This document shows, piece after piece, positions 11,707-20,850 of a stretch of 40,147 bases of DNA. Origin of the DNA: Candidatus Saccharimonadales bacterium (lineage in GTDB: Bacteria; Patescibacteriota; Saccharimonadia; Saccharimonadales; UBA10212); assembly GCA_025450575.1 (NCBI GenBank), contig JANWHE010000014.1, positions 1 to 40,147 of the forward strand, written 5' to 3'. The position numbers and the translations under genes are program-made. The stretch's first letter is position 1. Every line of letters begins with the position of its first letter. Below the pieces are notes generated by a model. The model saw only the letters and a list, made by a program, of their open reading frames with translations. It ran no database searches and had not been told where the DNA came from.

Positions 11707-13038
11707 ATGGATAGCGAGGCGGCCGCCAAATTAATCGATGACGCGGCCGAAGTGCTGAAGAACAACGACCGCGGCGGCTGGACGGTGCCGGCCAGCGAGT
11801 TATACCCTCATCAGTGGCTATGGGACAGCTGCTTTATTGCCATCGGCCTGCGGCATCTGGATATAGAGCGCTCCAAAACCGAAATCCGCAGCTTGCTGCG
11901 CGGCCAGTGGGACAACGGCATGCTGCCGCATATTGTCTTCAATAACCAGACGGACTACGCCCGCGACCGCAACAACGAACGCGGCGACCTCAATCCTTTT
12001 GCCCCTACCGGCGTATCGACCAGTGGCATAACGCAGCCGCCGATGGTCGCCGAAGCCGTGCTGCGGATCGGTCAGCTGCTTAAATCACCGGAGCGCCGTA
12101 CTTGGTACAAAGAGGTTCTACCGGCTATCATCCGCTACCACGAATGGCTGTACGCCGACCGTGACCCCCATAAAGAAGGGTTGGTTCTGCTGCTTCATCC
12201 CTACGAGTCGGGCCTGGATAACTCGCCGCCTTGGATCAGCGAACTGCGCAAGCACAGCATGCCGCTATGGGTCAGCAGCGGGGAGCGGCTGCATCTGGAC
12301 GGAATCATCAACAGGTTCCGACGCGACGTCAAACGCAAAACGCTGCCGCCGGGCCAGCGCATTACCAACGCCGAAGCCTTGGCTTTCTGGTCGGTGATGC
12401 GGCGCATGCAGCGCAAGGCCTATAACACCGAAGCCATCTTATCGCGGTCGGTTTTCGCGGTGGAAGACCTAGCTTTCAACAGCATCTTCATAAGGGCTAA
12501 CGATTGCCTCGAACAGATAGCCAAAGCCGCCGGCCAAGCTTTGCCGGACAGCCTGCTGGAGAATATTGGAAAGTCCCAGAATGCCATCGAAAACCTATGG
12601 GACGAAAACACCGGCTTTTACTATAACCGCAGTTTCGTCAGCCACCGGCTGATAGAGGAGCCGACCGTGGCTTCGCTGCTGCCGCTGTATTCTGGCGCCA
12701 TCTCCCGCAGTCGGGCCGCCATGCTGGTCAAACGGCTAAAAAGACCCGATGAATTCGCCCTTAAGTGGCCGGTGCCCAGCGTCCCGCGTAGTTCGTCTTA
12801 CTTTGACCCTTATAAATACTGGCAGGGACCAAGCTGGGTAAACACCAACTGGCTGATCGCCGAGGGGCTGGAGCGTTACGGTTTTGACCTGGAGGCTAAG
12901 GAGCTGCGGGTCAGCACCACCCGGATGGTGGCTAAAAGCGGCTTTTATGAGTATTTCAACCCGCTGGACGCCAAGCCGGCCGGCGCCGCCAATTTCTCCT
13001 GGACCGCCGCCCTTATTATCGACTTATTGAAAAGCTAA
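11707..13038 (+). CDS. MGH1-like / GH63-type glycoside hydrolase
   Basis: (alpha/alpha)6 glucosidase-like signatures: LYPHQWLWDSCFIAIGL, GMLPHIVF, YWQGPSWVNTNWLI, YEYFNPLDAKPAGAANFSWTAAL. Confidence 0.82.
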   Translation: MDSEAAAKLIDDAAEVLKNNDRGGWTVPASELYPHQWLWDSCFIAIGLRHLDIERSKTEIRSLLRGQWDNGMLPHIVFNNQTDYARDRNNERGDLNPFAPTGVSTSGITQPPMVAEAVLRIGQLLKSPERRTWYKEVLPAIIRYHEWLYADRDPHKEGLVLLLHPYESGLDNSPPWISELRKHSMPLWVSSGERLHLDGIINRFRRDVKRKTLPPGQRITNAEALAFWSVMRRMQRKAYNTEAILSRSVFAVEDLAFNSIFIRANDCLEQIAKAAGQALPDSLLENIGKSQNAIENLWDENTGFYYNRSFVSHRLIEEPTVASLLPLYSGAISRSRAAMLVKRLKRPDEFALKWPVPSVPRSSSYFDPYKYWQGPSWVNTNWLIAEGLERYGFDLEAKELRVSTTRMVAKSGFYEYFNPLDAKPAGAANFSWTAALIIDLLKS

Positions 13039-14099
13039 TCTTCGTCGAGGGTTGGGCGGTCGATTAAAATCGGTTCGACTACGGATTCGGAGTCAGCGAT
13101 TTTGACTACATCTCTATCGATTTTGCCAAGCTCTTTGTAGGTAGTGTTAAAGTGGCCGACGGTGGTACCAAGCGAGTTGCCGAGTTTTTGCATGTAGCCG
13201 TTGTGCGCCAATAAGTGTTTGCTGAGCTGTTCGATGTTTTTGCGGATTTTCTCCGTATCCTTGTGTATCTCCATAGACCGCAGAGCCTGGACGATAATTT
13301 GAAGGTGGGAAGCTAAAGTGCTAGGGCCAACGATCGTTATCTTTTTTTCAACTGAGTATTGCATCAGGTTGCGGCCAGATACGCCAGCCTCTCCAACTTT
13401 ATTTGCTAATAGGTCGTAATAAATCGCCTCGCTGGGGATGAACATCAACGCTTGGTCAAGCGTACCCCTGGCCGGGTTAATGTATTTGGCTGTCTCATCG
13501 ATGCGCCGCTTTAAATCTTCTTTAAAAGCCCGTTCCAGCGCCGGCCGCTCGGCCTCCTTAGCGTCAATCAGCCGGTTGTAATTTTCGAGCGAGAATTTAC
13601 TGTCGATCGGCAAAAGTTTTTCGTCAAGTTTAATGACAGCATCCACTGTCATAGCCGGCCCCATTTTATACTGCAGTTCATAAGCGCCGGGCGGCAGCAG
13701 GTTTTTTAAAATTTGTTCAAGATAATATTCACCCAAAACACCGCGCTGTTTAGGGTTCTGCAGGACGTTTTGCAGGGTCTTCAGCTCAGCCGCTACGTCA
13801 CCAACACTTTTATTGGTCCTATCCAGCTCCGTCAGTTTTTGGGTAACATCGGCGATAATTTTGGAGCTGGCCTGAAACTGAGCGGCCATTTGCCGATTGC
13901 TGGTCCCCAGCTGTTCGGTCAGCTGTTTTTGCAGGCCTTGTTGCAACAGACCCATCGATTTTGTCAATTCAGTCATATCAGCCTTTAGCAACATCGTGGC
14001 ATCAGAGCCGCTAGTGTCTTTATGACGAGTCAGTGTCCAAAACACAAATCCGGCCAGCGCCAGGCATAAAATCCCCAAAATAATCACCGCCACAATCAT
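13035..14099 (-). CDS. rmuC: DNA recombination protein RmuC family
   Basis: N-terminal TM, coiled coil, then RmuC core (RGVLGEYYLEQILKNLLPPGAYELQYKMG, LPIDSKFSLENYNRL, ALMFIPSEAIYYDLL). Confidence 0.9.
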   Translation of the reverse strand: MIVAVIILGILCLALAGFVFWTLTRHKDTSGSDATMLLKADMTELTKSMGLLQQGLQKQLTEQLGTSNRQMAAQFQASSKIIADVTQKLTELDRTNKSVGDVAAELKTLQNVLQNPKQRGVLGEYYLEQILKNLLPPGAYELQYKMGPAMTVDAVIKLDEKLLPIDSKFSLENYNRLIDAKEAERPALERAFKEDLKRRIDETAKYINPARGTLDQALMFIPSEAIYYDLLANKVGEAGVSGRNLMQYSVEKKITIVGPSTLASHLQIIVQALRSMEIHKDTEKIRKNIEQLSKHLLAHNGYMQKLGNSLGTTVGHFNTTYKELGKIDRDVVKIADSESVVEPILIDRPTLDED

Positions 14100-14114
14100 A
14101 GACTTATTATACCT

Positions 14115-14840
14115 TTAGACGAAGCGGGTGACTATGAACATAAACACCGTGCCAGCGATGGTAAGCAGGATACTTTTGCGCGAGAAGTCTTTGCTGTGGG
14201 CTTGGGGCAGTATATTACTGGCGGCGATGTAGAGGATAAAACCCGCGAAAAAGCCGAGGTAGATCGCCAGGGCTCTTTCGGAAAAGTCAAACATCAGTGT
14301 CGACAAACCGCCCAGTATAGGCATTAGGACGACGACGGCCAGCCATCTTCTGATATGCCCGAGCTTATTGCCATGGAAGACCATGAAAGTGGTGGTATCG
14401 AAGCCGTCGGCGAAACGATGGCCGATGACCGCCAGGGCGACAGCGGAGCCAACCGATGTGCTTACCTGAAAACCTACGCCTATGCTCAGGCCGTCTAAAA
14501 AGCTATGGCCGGAAAGCGCGGCCGCCCTGGCGGTGCCAAACATCGGATGCCGGTGAGGCCCGTATTGCTCTTCGTTAGCTTCGTGGATAGGCACAAATTT
14601 TTCGAATATATGGAACAGTAGAAAGCCGGACGCCAAAGCGATCATCGGGTAAGCGGTATTGAGTTTCTGCGACAGAGAAAGGTCAAATATCTCCGGCAGC
14701 AGGTCAAAACAGACCAACCCTAACACCAGGCCCGCTGTCAGGGCTAGAGCCCGGCTTAGCCATTTCCGGCTGCGTAGAGCCGTTAAGCCCCCCAGCAAAG
14801 CGGCGATGGAGGCGGCGACTGTCAGCAGGAAAACTATCAT
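14115..14840 (-). CDS. ZIP-family metal transporter
   Basis: Multi-TM protein with HSFLDGLSIGVGFQ, IGHRFADGFDTTTF and His-containing loop EANEEQYGPHRHP. Confidence 0.85.
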   Translation of the reverse strand: MIVFLLTVAASIAALLGGLTALRSRKWLSRALALTAGLVLGLVCFDLLPEIFDLSLSQKLNTAYPMIALASGFLLFHIFEKFVPIHEANEEQYGPHRHPMFGTARAAALSGHSFLDGLSIGVGFQVSTSVGSAVALAVIGHRFADGFDTTTFMVFHGNKLGHIRRWLAVVVLMPILGGLSTLMFDFSERALAIYLGFFAGFILYIAASNILPQAHSKDFSRKSILLTIAGTVFMFIVTRFV

Positions 14841-14867
14841 CGACCGATTGTATATTCACCATTGCTG

Positions 14868-14879
14868 AATTTGCAAATT
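14868..14879. promoter_or_regulatory. Perfect 12-bp palindrome AATTTGCAAATT between zip and fur-like genes; candidate metal-regulator operator
   Basis: Palindrome read directly, flanked by an offset ATTGC (14861-14865) and GCAAT (14884-14888). Confidence 0.5.
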
Positions 14880-14910
14880 TGTCGCAATTTAATTAAAATT
14901 ACAGATACAG

Positions 14911-15327
14911 ATGCATTACGACACCCTTAAATCAATCCTTAAGGCCGGCGGTGCCAGCCTTACCCAGCCCCGGAAGATAATATTCGACCTGATGCTTAAC
15001 CAGGGGCCGCAAAGCATGCAGGTCCTAGTCCGGCGGGCCAAAGACAAAGTTGACCGGGCCACGGTTTACCGGACGATCGAGCTATTCGAGCGCTTGGGAA
15101 TTGTCCGTCGGTTGAATATCGGCTGGAAATACAAGATAGAGCTGACCGACGCCTTTTCCGGCCATCACCATCATATGTACTGCACCAATTGCGGGCGAGT
15201 GTTCGACCTGCCGGATAACCCGATGCTAGAGACTATGATAGATACCGTCGCCGCCAAAAGCGGTTTCTCGCCGCGCGGCCACCAGCTGGAAGTCTACGGC
15301 CTCTGTGCTAATTGTTCGAAGGCCTAG
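14911..15327 (+). CDS. Fur-family metal-dependent transcriptional regulator
   Basis: Winged helix (DRATVYRTIELFERLGIVRRL), HHHHMYCTNCGRVFDLP and C-terminal CANC. Confidence 0.92.
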   Translation: MHYDTLKSILKAGGASLTQPRKIIFDLMLNQGPQSMQVLVRRAKDKVDRATVYRTIELFERLGIVRRLNIGWKYKIELTDAFSGHHHHMYCTNCGRVFDLPDNPMLETMIDTVAAKSGFSPRGHQLEVYGLCANCSKA

Positions 15328-16778
15328 CCGGCATTCAAGGCTTCGGCCGGATCGACTACTTCGTTCTTGACTATGAAAAATACGGCAACGACTCCGGCAA
15401 GGGCCAACCCGATGCCGACGTGCAGAGCTGATTGGTAGCCGTGGATCTGAGCGTATTTAGCTACCACATGAGCATGGGCCTGGGTTCGGACCGTAGAAAA
15501 CGCTACGGCCGACAAAATAGCTAGTCCGATGGCTCCACCAACTTGTTGGGACGTATTTAATACACCAGAAGCGATTCCGGACAAGTGCTTAGGCACTCCG
15601 GAGGTAGCAGCTAGGGTACCCGATACGAAAGTCAAGCCCATGCCAGCAGCGGCTAGAGCCAATCCGGGAAAGACGTTGTGCCAATAATTACCGCCAACTT
15701 TCATGGTGTGGGCAATGGTGAACAAACCAATGGCCAAAACTAATGGACCTAGGTTCATGGGTGGCTTATAGCCAATTTTGGGAACTATCTTAGCCACAAC
15801 TCCGGAGAGTATAGCAATGACCAGGGTTACCGGTAAAAAACTGAGTCCGGTTTTAACTGGCGAATAGCCCAATACTTGCTGGGTGTACAGGGTCATGAAA
15901 AAGAACATCGAAAACAGGGTGCAGGCAATTATCAGAAAGGCGGCGTTGCCACCCAGAACATTGCGAATCCGAAATAGATTGAGCGGCAGCATCGGCTGAT
16001 CAGTCTTGCGTTCGTTAATTACGAAACCGATTAGAAGCACCAGCCCAGCTACGATGAACGACCAGACGGTGGTCGATCCCCAGCCGTCATTCGGCGCCTT
16101 GGACAGACCGTAGACCAAGCTAACTAAACCAGCGGTGGCCAGGGCTGCTCCCGGTAGGTCCAGGCGCAGTTTCTTATTCTCTTCACCAATATGGTGTGGT
16201 AACAAGCGGAACGACATTATCACTACGAATATGCCAACTGGAACATTGACAAAGAAATTCCAGCGCCAACTAAGGTATTGGGTTAGCGCCCCGCCCAGCA
16301 GCAGTCCGACAGCGGCACCGCCGGCCGATACTGCTGACCAGATACCTAAGGCTGTGTTACGCTCTTTGCCTTCCCGAAATTCGCTAATAACTATCGATAG
16401 AGCGGCCGGTGACATAAAGGCTCCAGCTAATCCTTGCGCGGCTCGAGCCATAATAACCTGGCCGGAACTTTGGGCTAAACCACACAGCAGGCTCATCGAT
16501 GCGAAAAAGAAAACCGACCCAATAAACAGTTTGCGCCGGCCGTAAATGTCGGCTGCTCGGCCGCCTAGTAGTAAAAATCCACCGAAAGTCAGTGTATAAG
16601 CCGTAATAACCCACTGCAGGTTATTCGATGCAAAGTGTAGAGCTTTGGCCATGCTCGGCAGCGCCACATTAACAATCGACACATCTAAAATCACCATAAA
16701 CTGAGCAATAACTAACAGAGCCAGCAGGACCCATTTGTTTTCGCTATGTTTAGATAGTTCTCTTTTCGCTCTAGCCAA
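15324..16778 (-). CDS. MFS multidrug transporter, EmrB/QacA (14-TMS) type
   Basis: LDVSIVNVALPSMAKAL, LLGGRAADIYGRRKLF, GGAIGLAILSAVAFSTVRT. TTG start with SD GAAGGAAGG. Confidence 0.9.
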   Translation of the reverse strand: MARAKRELSKHSENKWVLLALLVIAQFMVILDVSIVNVALPSMAKALHFASNNLQWVITAYTLTFGGFLLLGGRAADIYGRRKLFIGSVFFFASMSLLCGLAQSSGQVIMARAAQGLAGAFMSPAALSIVISEFREGKERNTALGIWSAVSAGGAAVGLLLGGALTQYLSWRWNFFVNVPVGIFVVIMSFRLLPHHIGEENKKLRLDLPGAALATAGLVSLVYGLSKAPNDGWGSTTVWSFIVAGLVLLIGFVINERKTDQPMLPLNLFRIRNVLGGNAAFLIIACTLFSMFFFMTLYTQQVLGYSPVKTGLSFLPVTLVIAILSGVVAKIVPKIGYKPPMNLGPLVLAIGLFTIAHTMKVGGNYWHNVFPGLALAAAGMGLTFVSGTLAATSGVPKHLSGIASGVLNTSQQVGGAIGLAILSAVAFSTVRTQAHAHVVAKYAQIHGYQSALHVGIGLALAGVVAVFFIVKNEVVDPAEALNAG

Positions 16779-16880
16779 AGTACCTTCCTTCTGAAATATT
16801 ACTTTTATGGTAGCCGATTAAGCTCCAGTGGACAATAGCCAGGTGTGTGATAAATATCAAAATGGGTTAGAATAACGCTA

Positions 16881-18071
16881 ATGGCAAACAAAAAGGTGAA
16901 GGTCCTAATCCTGGGCGGCGGCTTCGGCGGTTTAAAGACGGCTTTAGGACTGGCGGGCCAGCCGGAGCTCGATGTTACCCTACTGTCCGACCAGGCTGAT
17001 TTCCGCTATTACCCCACCCTTTACCACGCCGCGACCGGCGGCAAGATGACCGCCTCCAGCATTCCGCTGGCCGAAATTCTCAAAGACAAAAATATCACTA
17101 TCGAGAAAGGCACGGCTAAAAAGCTGGATCGCCAAGCCAAGACAGTCAAAACGGCCGCCGGCCGGGAACTGCCTTATGACAAACTGGTCTTATCGCTGGG
17201 CGTTGTCACTAATTACTTCGGCATCAAGGGATTGAAAGAGTATTCGTTCGGAATCAAAAGCCAAGCCGAGTCACAGCGGCTGCGCGACCATATCCACAAA
17301 CTATTGATAGACGATGGCAAGCCCGACCTTAACTACGTGGTCATCGGCGGCGGCCCTACCGGCGTGGAGCTAGCCGGCGCCCTGCCCGCTTATATCAGAC
17401 ACGTCATGAAAATGCATAATCTGAGACCTAAGCGGCTGAATATCGAGCTGGTAGAAGCTGCGCCGCGGCTGATGCCCAGAATGAGCAAGGATTATTCGCG
17501 GGCTGTTGCCCGCCGGCTGCGCAAGCTCGGTATAAAGCTTTATCTTCACCAAGCCGTTCAGGCCGAAACGGCCGATTCGCTGATGGTTAACGGCAAGCCG
17601 CTTAAAAGCCATACTGTTATATGGACGGCCGGCGTCACCAATCATCCGTTTTTCGAGGATAATAAGTTTGCCTTCGGCGAGCACGGCAAGGTCCAAGTCG
17701 ATAAATACCTGCAGGCCGAGGACGATATCTTCGTCATCGGCGACAACGCCGGTACGGAATACTCCGGCATGGCTCAGACGGCGCTGCACGACGGCCAGAC
17801 CGTCGCCGAGAACCTTATACGCCAGGCGCATGGCAAAAAAATGAAGAAGTACCGGACCAAAAAGCCAATCTATGTCACACCGGCCGGTCCAGGCTGGGCG
17901 GCGATGCAGTGGGGCCCGGTGCACCTTTACGGCTGGCTGGGGTGGGTGGGGCGCTCGGCCGGAGATTTCGCCGGTTTCCATGACTATGAGCCTTGGCGGC
18001 TGGCCGGCAGACATTGGATAGCCGAATACCAGAACGAAAATACCTGCCCGGTCTGTGCCGCCCAAGCATAG
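16881..18071 (+). CDS. Type II NADH dehydrogenase (NDH-2) family FAD oxidoreductase
   Basis: Two Rossmann motifs (LILGGGFGGLKTA; YVVIGGGPTGVELAGAL), FVIGDNA, C-terminal amphipathic GWAAMQWGPVHLYGWLGW. Ends ENTCPVCAAQA. Confidence 0.9.
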   Translation: MANKKVKVLILGGGFGGLKTALGLAGQPELDVTLLSDQADFRYYPTLYHAATGGKMTASSIPLAEILKDKNITIEKGTAKKLDRQAKTVKTAAGRELPYDKLVLSLGVVTNYFGIKGLKEYSFGIKSQAESQRLRDHIHKLLIDDGKPDLNYVVIGGGPTGVELAGALPAYIRHVMKMHNLRPKRLNIELVEAAPRLMPRMSKDYSRAVARRLRKLGIKLYLHQAVQAETADSLMVNGKPLKSHTVIWTAGVTNHPFFEDNKFAFGEHGKVQVDKYLQAEDDIFVIGDNAGTEYSGMAQTALHDGQTVAENLIRQAHGKKMKKYRTKKPIYVTPAGPGWAAMQWGPVHLYGWLGWVGRSAGDFAGFHDYEPWRLAGRHWIAEYQNENTCPVCAAQA

Positions 18072-18110
18072 ATTCAGCTGCTACACAGTTTATAATTGGA
18101 GAATAGAATC

Positions 18111-19607
18111 ATGGGGAACGCGCTTAAACTAAGCGGCCAGAAACTTATCAGCCTGCTGGACCGCATAAACGACCGCTTCACCAGTTATCGGCTGGTGCTG
18201 TATTATCTCCTGGCGCTGATTATCTGGGCGGTAATTGGCAGCTTTTATAAACAAGTTCCCTTCAACTGGCATCAGATCCTGGTATCGGCTGGCTGGCTGT
18301 TACTGGTCTGCTGGCTGGTCAACAAAGCCCTATCCAGATTCCTGGATATTCCAGCCAACAAAGAATCGGACCTCATAACCGCGCTGATACTGGCCCTTAT
18401 ATTGTCGCCGCCCGCCGACGCTCATGGATTCATCGTCAACGCCGTGGCCGGCGTCGCGGCCATCGCCTCCAAATACATAATCACTCTGCGCAAAAGCCAT
18501 ATCTTTAATCCGGCGGCCGCCGGCGCCTTTATTTCCGGCGAGCTACTGCAGCAATTTCCTTCCTGGTGGGTCGGCACTAAATTCCTGACGCCGGTCGTCG
18601 TTATTGGCGGCATCCTGGTGCTGCGTAAGGTTAAGCGGTTCCAGATGGTCGGAGTGTTCTTAGCGGTCTTCGTTCTCTACCTGATTTTCGGCGGCAGCTC
18701 CGGCGGTAATGTCCATTTCCTGTGGCTGGAAATCATCTCCACCCAAGCGTTATTCTTCGCCGTCATAATGCTGACCGAGCCGCTGACCTCTCCGGCTATC
18801 GCCCGCTACTTTCTGCCGTACGCCGTCTTAGTGGCCCTGTTATATTCGATTACCAGGCTGAGGCTTAGCCCCGAAGAGGCCCTGCTGATCGGCAACCTGT
18901 TCACTTTCATAGTCGCCGCCAACCGGCGTTACCAGGTCAGATTTATCCGGCGGCTGAAAGAGGCCGACGGTATATACAGTTACGCCTTCAGTATGCCGCC
19001 GCGTTTCAAATTCCAGCCCGGCCAGTATCTGGAGTGGACTCTCGCCCATAATAGAACTGACAGCCGCGGCAACCGCCGCTACCTGACTATCTCTTCATCG
19101 CCGACCGAACCGGGCCTGATGTTCACTATCAAACACCCGCCTAAAGCCAGTGCCTTCAAACAGAAGCTGCATAAACTGAAAACCGGCGACACAATCTTGG
19201 CGTCTCGGCTGGCCGGCAGTTTCACGTTGCCTAAAGACCCCTCCAAAAAACTGGCGCTGTTGGCCGGCGGCGTCGGCATCACGCCGTTCCGCAGCATGAT
19301 AAAGTATTTAATCGATACTAAAGAGACGCGCGATGTGGTGCTGCTTTATTCGGCCAACTCCCCTCAGGAATTATCGTTCCAGAAACTGTTCGACCGGGCC
19401 GCGGCCGTCGGGCTTAAGGCCAGCTACGTGACCGAAGGCCGTATCGACGAAGCCAAAATCAGAAAATTACTGCCGGACTTCGCGGAGCGGCAGTTTTATA
19501 TATCCGGGCCATACGGCTTCGTCAACGGCGTGGAGTCTGCGTTGCTCAAACTGGGCGTCGGCTACGACCATATCGTCACCGACTATTTCCCTGGCTACGG
19601 CGGCTAA
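18111..19607 (+). CDS. RnfD/NqrB-like membrane domain fused to a ferredoxin-NADP reductase-like FAD/NAD domain
   Basis: About 250 aa multi-TM region with HIFNPAAAGAF and IMLTEPLTSPA, followed by FNR motifs (GQYLEWTL, RYLTISSSP, LLAGGVGITPFRSMIKY, FYISGPYGFV). SD GGAG before ATG 18111. Confidence 0.85.
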   Translation: MGNALKLSGQKLISLLDRINDRFTSYRLVLYYLLALIIWAVIGSFYKQVPFNWHQILVSAGWLLLVCWLVNKALSRFLDIPANKESDLITALILALILSPPADAHGFIVNAVAGVAAIASKYIITLRKSHIFNPAAAGAFISGELLQQFPSWWVGTKFLTPVVVIGGILVLRKVKRFQMVGVFLAVFVLYLIFGGSSGGNVHFLWLEIISTQALFFAVIMLTEPLTSPAIARYFLPYAVLVALLYSITRLRLSPEEALLIGNLFTFIVAANRRYQVRFIRRLKEADGIYSYAFSMPPRFKFQPGQYLEWTLAHNRTDSRGNRRYLTISSSPTEPGLMFTIKHPPKASAFKQKLHKLKTGDTILASRLAGSFTLPKDPSKKLALLAGGVGITPFRSMIKYLIDTKETRDVVLLYSANSPQELSFQKLFDRAAAVGLKASYVTEGRIDEAKIRKLLPDFAERQFYISGPYGFVNGVESALLKLGVGYDHIVTDYFPGYGG

Positions 19608-20284
19608 ATTATCACCGCTTGGTAGTCTGGCTGGGATTCCATAAATGCGGCGGCCTTGGTGCGGCCCATGACGAACAGCGCCGTGGCCAGCACATCGGCC
19701 CATATAATATCCGGCCCGCTGACGGTGACGCTCAAGAGCTCATCTGCCGGCTGGCCGGTTTTGGGGTTGATGATATGGGCGCCGCGCTCATAGTTACCGC
19801 TAGTACAGACAGCTCCGTTAGAAATACTTAACACGTCAAGAATTTTTGATTTGTCGCGCGGGCTTTGGATGCCGATTTTCCATTCAAAACCGGAGTCAGA
19901 ATGGGCCATGATGTCGCCGCCGGCGCCGACGCAGTAAGTCCCATAGCCTTGACCGGCTATCACTCTTCCAGCTTCGGCTACGGCCCAGCCTTTTACATAG
20001 CCGCTGGGATCAAAGGCGCCGGCGGCCCAAGCCGAAAAATAGCCATCGGTCTTAGCTTCGGCTTCGCGGCAAGCTTTTATGACGGTTTTTAGTTCGTCAC
20101 TTAGATTAGCTTCCGTTATTTTTCCGGCGGCAAACCTAGAAACTTCGCTGTCCGGTTTATAAGTGCTGAACTTGGTGTCTATCTGCCGCAGCTGCTCAAA
20201 AGTCGCCTCAAATACGCCCGCCTCCTTACAGTCCGGGATATCAATACTGATGGGCATGCCCATAATCTGCTGCACCTGACGCAT
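19604..20284 (-). CDS. apbE: ApbE-family FAD:protein FMN transferase
   Basis: MGMPISIDI, FSTYKPDSEVSRF, FDPSGYVKGWAV, GGDIMA, HIINPKTGQPA. Confidence 0.9.
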   Translation of the reverse strand: MRQVQQIMGMPISIDIPDCKEAGVFEATFEQLRQIDTKFSTYKPDSEVSRFAAGKITEANLSDELKTVIKACREAEAKTDGYFSAWAAGAFDPSGYVKGWAVAEAGRVIAGQGYGTYCVGAGGDIMAHSDSGFEWKIGIQSPRDKSKILDVLSISNGAVCTSGNYERGAHIINPKTGQPADELLSVTVSGPDIIWADVLATALFVMGRTKAAAFMESQPDYQAVII

Positions 20285-20293
20285 AAACTAATT

Positions 20294-20749
20294 CTACGCT
20301 GCTTGATCCAGGGCCGCTTGCAGAGACATCTGATATGCTTCACTAGTAGTTGTGGCGCCGGATACGAACTGGATATTAGAACTTTGGCTTTGGATGGTTT
20401 CATCCTTCAGGTAAGGCTCGGCGAAAGCCGTAACCATCTGGCTGTGGCCGAGATCGTGAGGCATCTGCAGGAATTTGACATCGGTTATCTTGCCGCCACT
20501 GACAACCACGGCGATCTGGACCGTCCCATAGGGCGTATCTTCGCTCTGCCCGTTGTAGGTTCCGTCTTTATAAGTTATCGGGGTCGCCGAGCTCGACGAG
20601 CTGGTATTAGCCGACTGGACCGCCGAGCTATTCGAGCCGGAGCTGCCGGACGGCGCCCCCAAAGGCGCTCCGTCGCCATGGTGCCTGGACGCTATGCCCA
20701 AAGCGCCGATGATGGCGACCGCTAAAATTACAATCACGCTTTTTTTCAT
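20294..20749 (-). CDS. Exported or membrane-anchored FMN-binding domain protein (covalent flavinylation substrate)
   Basis: Start MKKSVIVILAVAIIGALG at 20749; Ser/Ala-rich linker; FMN_bind fold with DGTYNGQ, QIAVVVSGGKITDVKF and FVSGATTTSEAY (SGAT flavinylation motif). Confidence 0.88.
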   Translation of the reverse strand: MKKSVIVILAVAIIGALGIASRHHGDGAPLGAPSGSSGSNSSAVQSANTSSSSSATPITYKDGTYNGQSEDTPYGTVQIAVVVSGGKITDVKFLQMPHDLGHSQMVTAFAEPYLKDETIQSQSSNIQFVSGATTTSEAYQMSLQAALDQAA

Positions 20750-20850
20750 ACCACTATAGTTTAGCAAGGCCCGCCTTAAATTTAGCTGAGTGGGAAGTAG
20801 AGCAGATAATCCGCTTGATTAAACTGCTGATTTACTGGTATTAACTACTT

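Follow-up and report, generated by a model that had tools for sequence, protein, structure and literature searches.

NQR/RNF-like systems were defined by Meheust et al. 2021 (eLife, PMC8238504) by the fusion of an NqrB/RnfD-like membrane domain to a reductase domain in a single protein encoded within a flavinylation gene cluster. They were reported in 127 genomes, chiefly of Actinobacteria and the Candidate Phyla Radiation (CPR), and a one-way transfer of electrons from NAD(P)H to an exported FMN domain was proposed. Huang et al. 2024 (PMC11334425/PMC10979944) modelled the complex of Ktedonobacter, and described the NqrB/RnfD-like subunit of these systems as being without a flavinylation site. 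An NqrB/NqrF-domain protein was also described in the Saccharibacterium Ca. T. rhizospherense by Starr et al. 2018 (PMC6031116). We analysed a locus of this kind in the 40,147 nt window (the whole stretch studied) of contig JANWHE010000014.1, from the Candidatus Saccharimonadales bacterium assembly GCA_025450575.1. The locus encodes a type II NADH dehydrogenase (NDH-2), a fusion of an RnfD/NqrB-like membrane domain to an FNR-like domain, the FAD:protein FMN transferase ApbE, and an FMN_bind protein with an SGAT motif. The fusion, the FMN_bind protein and ApbE probably constitute an NQR/RNF-like flavinylation system that acts as a one-way wire from NAD(P)H to exported FMN.

All four genes are intact at the expected place, and both the open reading frames and the Pfam matches bear out the identities given to them in the original prediction, which was made from the DNA letters alone. 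Within the fusion, the RnfD/NqrB-like membrane domain spans approximately residues 1–277 and the FNR-like FAD/NAD(P)H domain approximately residues 278–503 (numbered on a 503 aa reading from 18096), matching NQR2_RnfD_RnfE (PF03116) and NAD_binding_1 (PF00175), respectively. A model of the whole fusion, built with 57 aligned sequences, reached a pLDDT of 92.9. Fold and profile searches with the whole protein returned FNR, flavohemoglobin and NqrF reductase domains, and because FNR matches dominated that fold search the membrane domain was modelled separately (pLDDT 93.2). The best 15 matches of this second model in the PDB were all RnfD/NqrB chains (RnfD of Acetobacterium, Azotobacter and Clostridium; NqrB of Vibrio), with TM-scores of 0.61–0.70 relative to the query, and urea transporters ranked far below them. 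Pfam, fold matches and models with pLDDT of around 93 therefore agree on the two-domain architecture originally read from the sequence.

The motifs HIFNPAA, SWWVGT, LTEPLTSP, PGQY, RR-F-TI-SSP and GGIGITP are conserved in the fusion family, and those for FAD and NAD(P)H in the reductase half are kept across relatives. On modelling, the corresponding folds are conserved as well, so that the predicted capacity to bind flavin and NAD(P)H, on which the original prediction had staked itself, was not called into question. Among the 57 aligned fusions there is no conserved cysteine, and H135 and H318 are the sole conserved histidines, H135 being the only one in the membrane domain; this pattern makes an all-flavin electron path likely. 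A covalent flavin on the membrane domain was ruled out, as a profile alignment placed the flavinylation-site region of Escherichia coli RsxD inside an 80-residue stretch that is missing from the fusion.

In the mechanism that we propose, NAD(P)H would reduce the FAD of the cytosolic FNR domain, and electrons would move on to a non-covalent flavin within the RnfD/NqrB-like membrane domain. That flavin would in turn reduce the FMN of the exported, membrane-anchored FMN_bind protein, where ApbE is expected to have linked it covalently to the threonine of SGAT. The route would be one-way and all-flavin, with neither Fe–S cysteines nor a bis-histidine heme pattern. We infer the flavin occupancy of the membrane domain and the direction of electron flow. 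Computation shows what the domains are and how they fold, that the motifs are intact, that the genes are inherited together, and that the genome has no second copy of any of the three parts.

Co-inheritance was surveyed in a sample of 295 genomes of the same (Saccharimonadia-like) class, 71 of which encode a full-length fusion. An FMN_bind gene lies nearby in 56 of the 58 full-length fusion loci that were read with their flanks and an ApbE gene in 53, so the three core components are linked in relatives and their association is far from chance. Almost all of these loci share one arrangement, with FMN_bind, ApbE and the fusion following one another in that order on a single strand. This operon was also seen outside the class, in further CPR groups, in Actinobacteria and Chloroflexota, with examples from Arthrobacter, Microbacterium, Dictyobacter, Ktedonospora and an Anaerolineaceae metagenome-assembled genome, and in Mesorhizobium. 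A search of the window genome found a single PF03116 protein, a single ApbE and a single FMN_bind protein (the assembly is 87% complete, and genome-wide absences are provisional). The proposal of a path of very few parts, operating apart from other Rnf/Nqr subunits, thus gained support, and no full Rnf/Nqr complex came to light elsewhere in this assembly that might account for ApbE and the FMN_bind protein.

Table 1. Genes of the flavinylation locus and two neighbouring genes, with positions in the window
Feature	Position	Strand	Properties
ZIP transporter	14115-14840		
Fur-family regulator	14911-15327		
NDH-2 (type II NADH dehydrogenase)	16881-18071	+	396 aa; Pyr_redox_2 E 3e-40
RnfD/NqrB-like + FNR-like fusion	18111..19607	+	PF03116 + PF00175 above Pfam cut-off
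ApbE, FAD:protein FMN transferase, compact form	19604..20284	-	226 aa; PF02424 E 6.6e-48
FMN_bind protein	20294..20749	-	PF04205 E 3.6e-9; open frame reaches 20767

The fusion in the window likely starts at ATG 18111, giving a putative protein of 498 aa, a choice preferred because the alternative TTG 18096 falls within the GGAG ribosome-site stretch; the start codon of the FMN_bind gene is probably ATG 20749 (151–152 aa). The two gene pairs are convergent and overlap by four bases (fusion end 19607, ApbE 19604), and NDH-2 is probably co-transcribed with the fusion. This split form, with NDH-2 before the fusion, was found in only four genomes, namely the window genome, G119, G075 and G293, in the last of which it is distributed over two contigs; a more distant copy of NDH-2 is present in G214. 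The placement of NDH-2 beside the fusion is a rearrangement specific to this clade. In the phylogenetic tree, the fusions of the window clade fall outside the main SGAT clade of Saccharibacteria, and G071, which belongs to the same family as the window genome, has the main-clade operon. The tree thus favours a separate origin of the window-clade fusion, but this was not significant in an approximately unbiased test (p 0.085).

NDH-2 had originally been counted as part of the module, and this did not survive the survey. NDH-2 is encoded in 145 of the 295 genomes and the oxidase subunit COX1 in 101, and in 62 of the 94 genomes that have both the two genes lie within 12 kb of each other. NDH-2 was, therefore, ruled out as a general core component, adjacency to the fusion being limited to the window clade. 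With shared ancestry ignored in the counts, COX1 is present in 60 of the 71 fusion genomes versus 41 of the 224 fusion-less genomes, and NDH-2 in 68 of the 71. The window genome itself carries, on another contig, a heme-copper quinol oxidase operon with CyoA-, CyoB-, CyoC- and UbiA/CyoE-like genes, which makes oxygen a likely electron sink for this organism. NDH-2 is most likely an ordinary NADH:quinone reductase for the quinol oxidase that was relocated in the window clade; in a rhizosphere Saccharibacterium, NDH-2 has been described in an oxidase-terminated respiratory chain (Starr 2018, PMC6031116). The idea that the locus lets an organism of reduced metabolism dispose of electrons to a host is weakened by the oxidase operon and by the enrichment of the fusion in oxidase-bearing genomes.

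The place at which flavin is attached poses a problem of its own. The FMN_bind protein consists of an N-terminal membrane anchor, a Ser/Thr/Gly-rich linker and an FMN_bind domain with SGAT; its flavinylation motif region reads NIQFVSGATTTS, and GA[TS] and the following serine are conserved in an alignment with 39 relatives. In its catalytic region, ApbE of the window keeps those residues that are invariant or nearly so (AGGD, SG..R..H, AD...TA), and it can be aligned with solved ApbE structures, with a shortened mid-region. It has no signal peptide, and its core starts at around residue 8. By a simple hydropathy rule (not SignalP), used for both proteins, a credible export signal was found in none of the 94 ApbE sequences examined, across all phyla sampled, whereas a hydrophobic segment was seen at the N terminus of 95 of 95 FMN_bind partners, with a lipobox in 12, all actinobacterial. 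In 79 of the 89 ApbE sequences in which the core motif was located, the core lies no more than 25 residues from the earliest possible start. The first start codon is farther away in the remaining ten, most of whose frames extend back over the upstream gene, and none of the ten has a lipobox-type signal. Nor was an export signal found in 30 ApbE proteins that a separate search for the ApbE family retrieved from the class and that include operon members; the same measure detected the lipoprotein signal of E. coli ApbE, which served as a control.

In Listeria, flavinylation outside the cell requires the FAD-exporter subunit EetB, and EetB (PF07456) was found in none of the 295 genomes. Export of a pre-folded flavoprotein by the Tat pathway was rejected, given the lack of a detectable TatC in the window genome, G293, G119 and G075 and the near-absence of a twin-arginine pattern from FMN_bind N-termini; TatC is present in some other fusion-bearing genomes. 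Modification by ApbE needs merely a seven-residue motif, so an unfolded or nascent chain is a plausible substrate. Given an ApbE with no signal, an FMN_bind partner that is always anchored, no EetB, and no TatC in the clade, flavinylation before export through Sec is the simplest reading. We put forward tentatively, at somewhat short of even confidence, that throughout the family a cytosolic ApbE may flavinylate the unfolded FMN_bind chain, which would then cross Sec with no need for FAD export. The mismatch between ApbE and its partner in NQR/RNF-like operons seems to have gone unremarked, as the accessible literature on these systems does not discuss a missing export signal. Were flavin attached inside, covalently modified chains would have to pass through Sec, and the usual view, in which ApbE works outside the membrane on exported FAD, would fail for a large family. 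The consistent mismatch between an apparently cytosolic ApbE and an exported target raises a directly testable question as to where flavinylation takes place.

Other wirings of the same genes have to be weighed against the flavin wire. The counts for COX1 and NDH-2 in fusion genomes would suit a fusion that serves as a minimal NADH:quinone reductase, possibly Na+- or H+-coupled, feeding the quinol oxidase. NqrB holds the quinone site and presumed ion channel of Nqr. The fusion lies closely behind NDH-2 in the window, and a respiratory role was proposed for the similar Saccharibacterial NqrB/NqrF-domain protein (Starr 2018, PMC6031116). This role is nevertheless distinctly unlikely: the constant partner of the fusion is an exported FMN_bind protein and no oxidase, COX1 is missing from 11 of the 71 fusion genomes, other Nqr or Rnf parts are not adjacent, the genome search found no second PF03116 protein, and the family has no conserved cysteine to hold an Fe–S centre. 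NDH-2, the fusion and the FMN_bind protein might instead form a joint, Listeria-like route of extracellular electron transfer to minerals or host acceptors, as the adjacency of NDH-2 and fusion in four related genomes and a weak resemblance of the FMN_bind protein to PplA (E 5.6e-6) would allow. We consider this very unlikely, as NDH-2 is not conserved next to the module and accompanies COX1 in most genomes, EetB is absent from the class sample, and the fusion already has its own NAD(P)H input through the FNR domain. It is extremely improbable that the protein is in truth an NADPH oxidase with heme, or of the ferric-reductase type, and was misread as RnfD/NqrB; this identity was rejected on fold and histidine pattern. 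A Streptococcus NADPH oxidase does appear among the FNR-type matches of the whole-fusion fold search, but the membrane domain by itself matches RnfD/NqrB only, at high confidence, and the aligned fusions have no conserved histidine pairs.

A function in metal uptake, with the system reducing ferric or cupric ions and tied to the neighbouring Fur and ZIP genes, concerns the choice of acceptor and does not compete with the wiring; it is unlikely. Synteny of Fur, ZIP, MFS and NDH-2 genes is retained in relatives, and VIT1 occurs in six NQR/RNF-like clusters (Meheust 2021, PMC8238504). Beyond the window clade, however, Fur or ZIP genes lie near the module just in scattered cases. The link was dropped as a general feature, and a connection to metals is possible in the window clade only. 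The region at 13035–16778 of the window encodes RmuC, the ZIP transporter, the Fur-family regulator and an EmrB-type efflux protein; it is syntenic in G119 and G075, and its Fur and efflux genes are syntenic in G293 too. For the flavin wire as proposed here, our best guess is that, in cells exposed to oxygen, it reduces metal ions or redox partners in the envelope.

Several observations weigh against the flavin wire. The strong co-occurrence of the fusion with COX1 and NDH-2 also suits a role within a quinone-linked chain, and ApbE and its FMN_bind target are predicted to lie on opposite sides of the membrane. No published biochemistry for any NQR/RNF-like member was found in the accessible literature on the system. 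Some fusions (L064, L087, L103, L104 and L109) have no adjacent FMN_bind or ApbE gene, and the membrane domain is therefore able to use other partners. The neighbours of these partnerless fusions (L104:7790-8230, L109:6693-7178, L103:6521-7707, L064 and L087) include a secreted cupredoxin or a pair of DsbA-like and VKOR proteins, hinting at alternative outside partners; the cupredoxin was seen beside fusions of Daviesbacteria and Doudnabacteria.

Our survey of neighbouring genes for an acceptor returned a two-component system as the sole recurring item, in approximately 9–14 of the 58 loci. It pairs an OmpR-type response regulator with a histidine kinase (for example, L056:7364-8035 and L044:10643-11641), and a similar pair lies upstream of the quinol-oxidase operon in the window genome. 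There is also a second type of operon, in which VAGSSLTS, VSGSSLTS or IAGASDTT replaces [ST]GA[ST] in the FMN_bind protein and ApbE is longer (approximately 290–300 aa). It was seen at L052, L062, L066 and L075-L088 and, in Actinobacteria, at L118-L134 and L154; some Saccharibacterial copies cluster with Actinobacteria in the tree. A different flavinylation-type cluster of the same class (L190:292-3714) encodes an FNR-like protein whose C terminus forms a membrane tail, a signal-less ApbE, and a membrane protein with ITGAT that is MsrQ/ferric-reductase-like in appearance.

Compared with described systems, the module shares with Na+-NQR and Rnf the RnfD/NqrB fold, an NqrF-like reductase domain, an NqrC/RnfG-like FMN_bind subunit and ApbE, and differs in having no other subunits beside it, no Fe–S centres (no cysteine being conserved in the aligned fusions) and no second, return electron path. 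The assembly, 87% complete, shows no full set of subunits (NqrA-F or RnfA-E,G); it has one PF03116 and one FMN_bind protein with no others adjacent, A/C/D/E-type subunits not having been searched for singly. The flavin-based extracellular electron transfer system of Listeria (Ndh2, EetA/B, FmnA/B, PplA) likewise combines a nearby NDH-2 with an exported protein flavinylated by ApbE; in the window system, by contrast, EetB is absent, ApbE has no signal in place of the exported FmnB type, and an FNR domain is built into the fusion. The protein of Ca. T. rhizospherense (PMC6031116) probably belongs to the same fusion family, a likeness drawn from its description: NqrF-like and NqrB-like domains are united in one membrane protein, in a Saccharibacterium with NDH-2 and cytochrome bo3. 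An Fe–S domain was described there as well and ion translocation was proposed, whereas the window family has no conserved cysteine, and the accessible text mentions no FMN_bind/ApbE partnership. A literature search for Saccharibacteria with FMN-binding gave no match.

The closest counterpart is the NQR/RNF-like system itself. As in that system, an N-terminal PF03116-like (NqrB/RnfD-like) membrane domain and a C-terminal PF00175 domain are joined in one protein, the fusion is clustered with FMN_bind and ApbE genes in an association conserved in relatives, the FMN_bind partner is exported by the hydropathy rule, and the membrane subunit has lost the flavinylation threonine of NqrB/RnfD, which falls in the gap of the RsxD alignment. 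The locus is not new in kind, the same system having been published for CPR and Actinobacteria (PMC8238504, PMC11334425/PMC10979944 and probably PMC6031116). The module, found in very small genomes, needs just two redox proteins and an enzyme for maturation to carry electrons out from NAD(P)H, which places it among the shortest conceivable paths of this sort; its size would allow reconstitution in E. coli or liposomes. Whilst this kind of system is already known, what seems to be new is the splitting of the operon into convergent halves, the joining of NDH-2 to the fusion, and an ApbE that appears to be cytosolic throughout the family.

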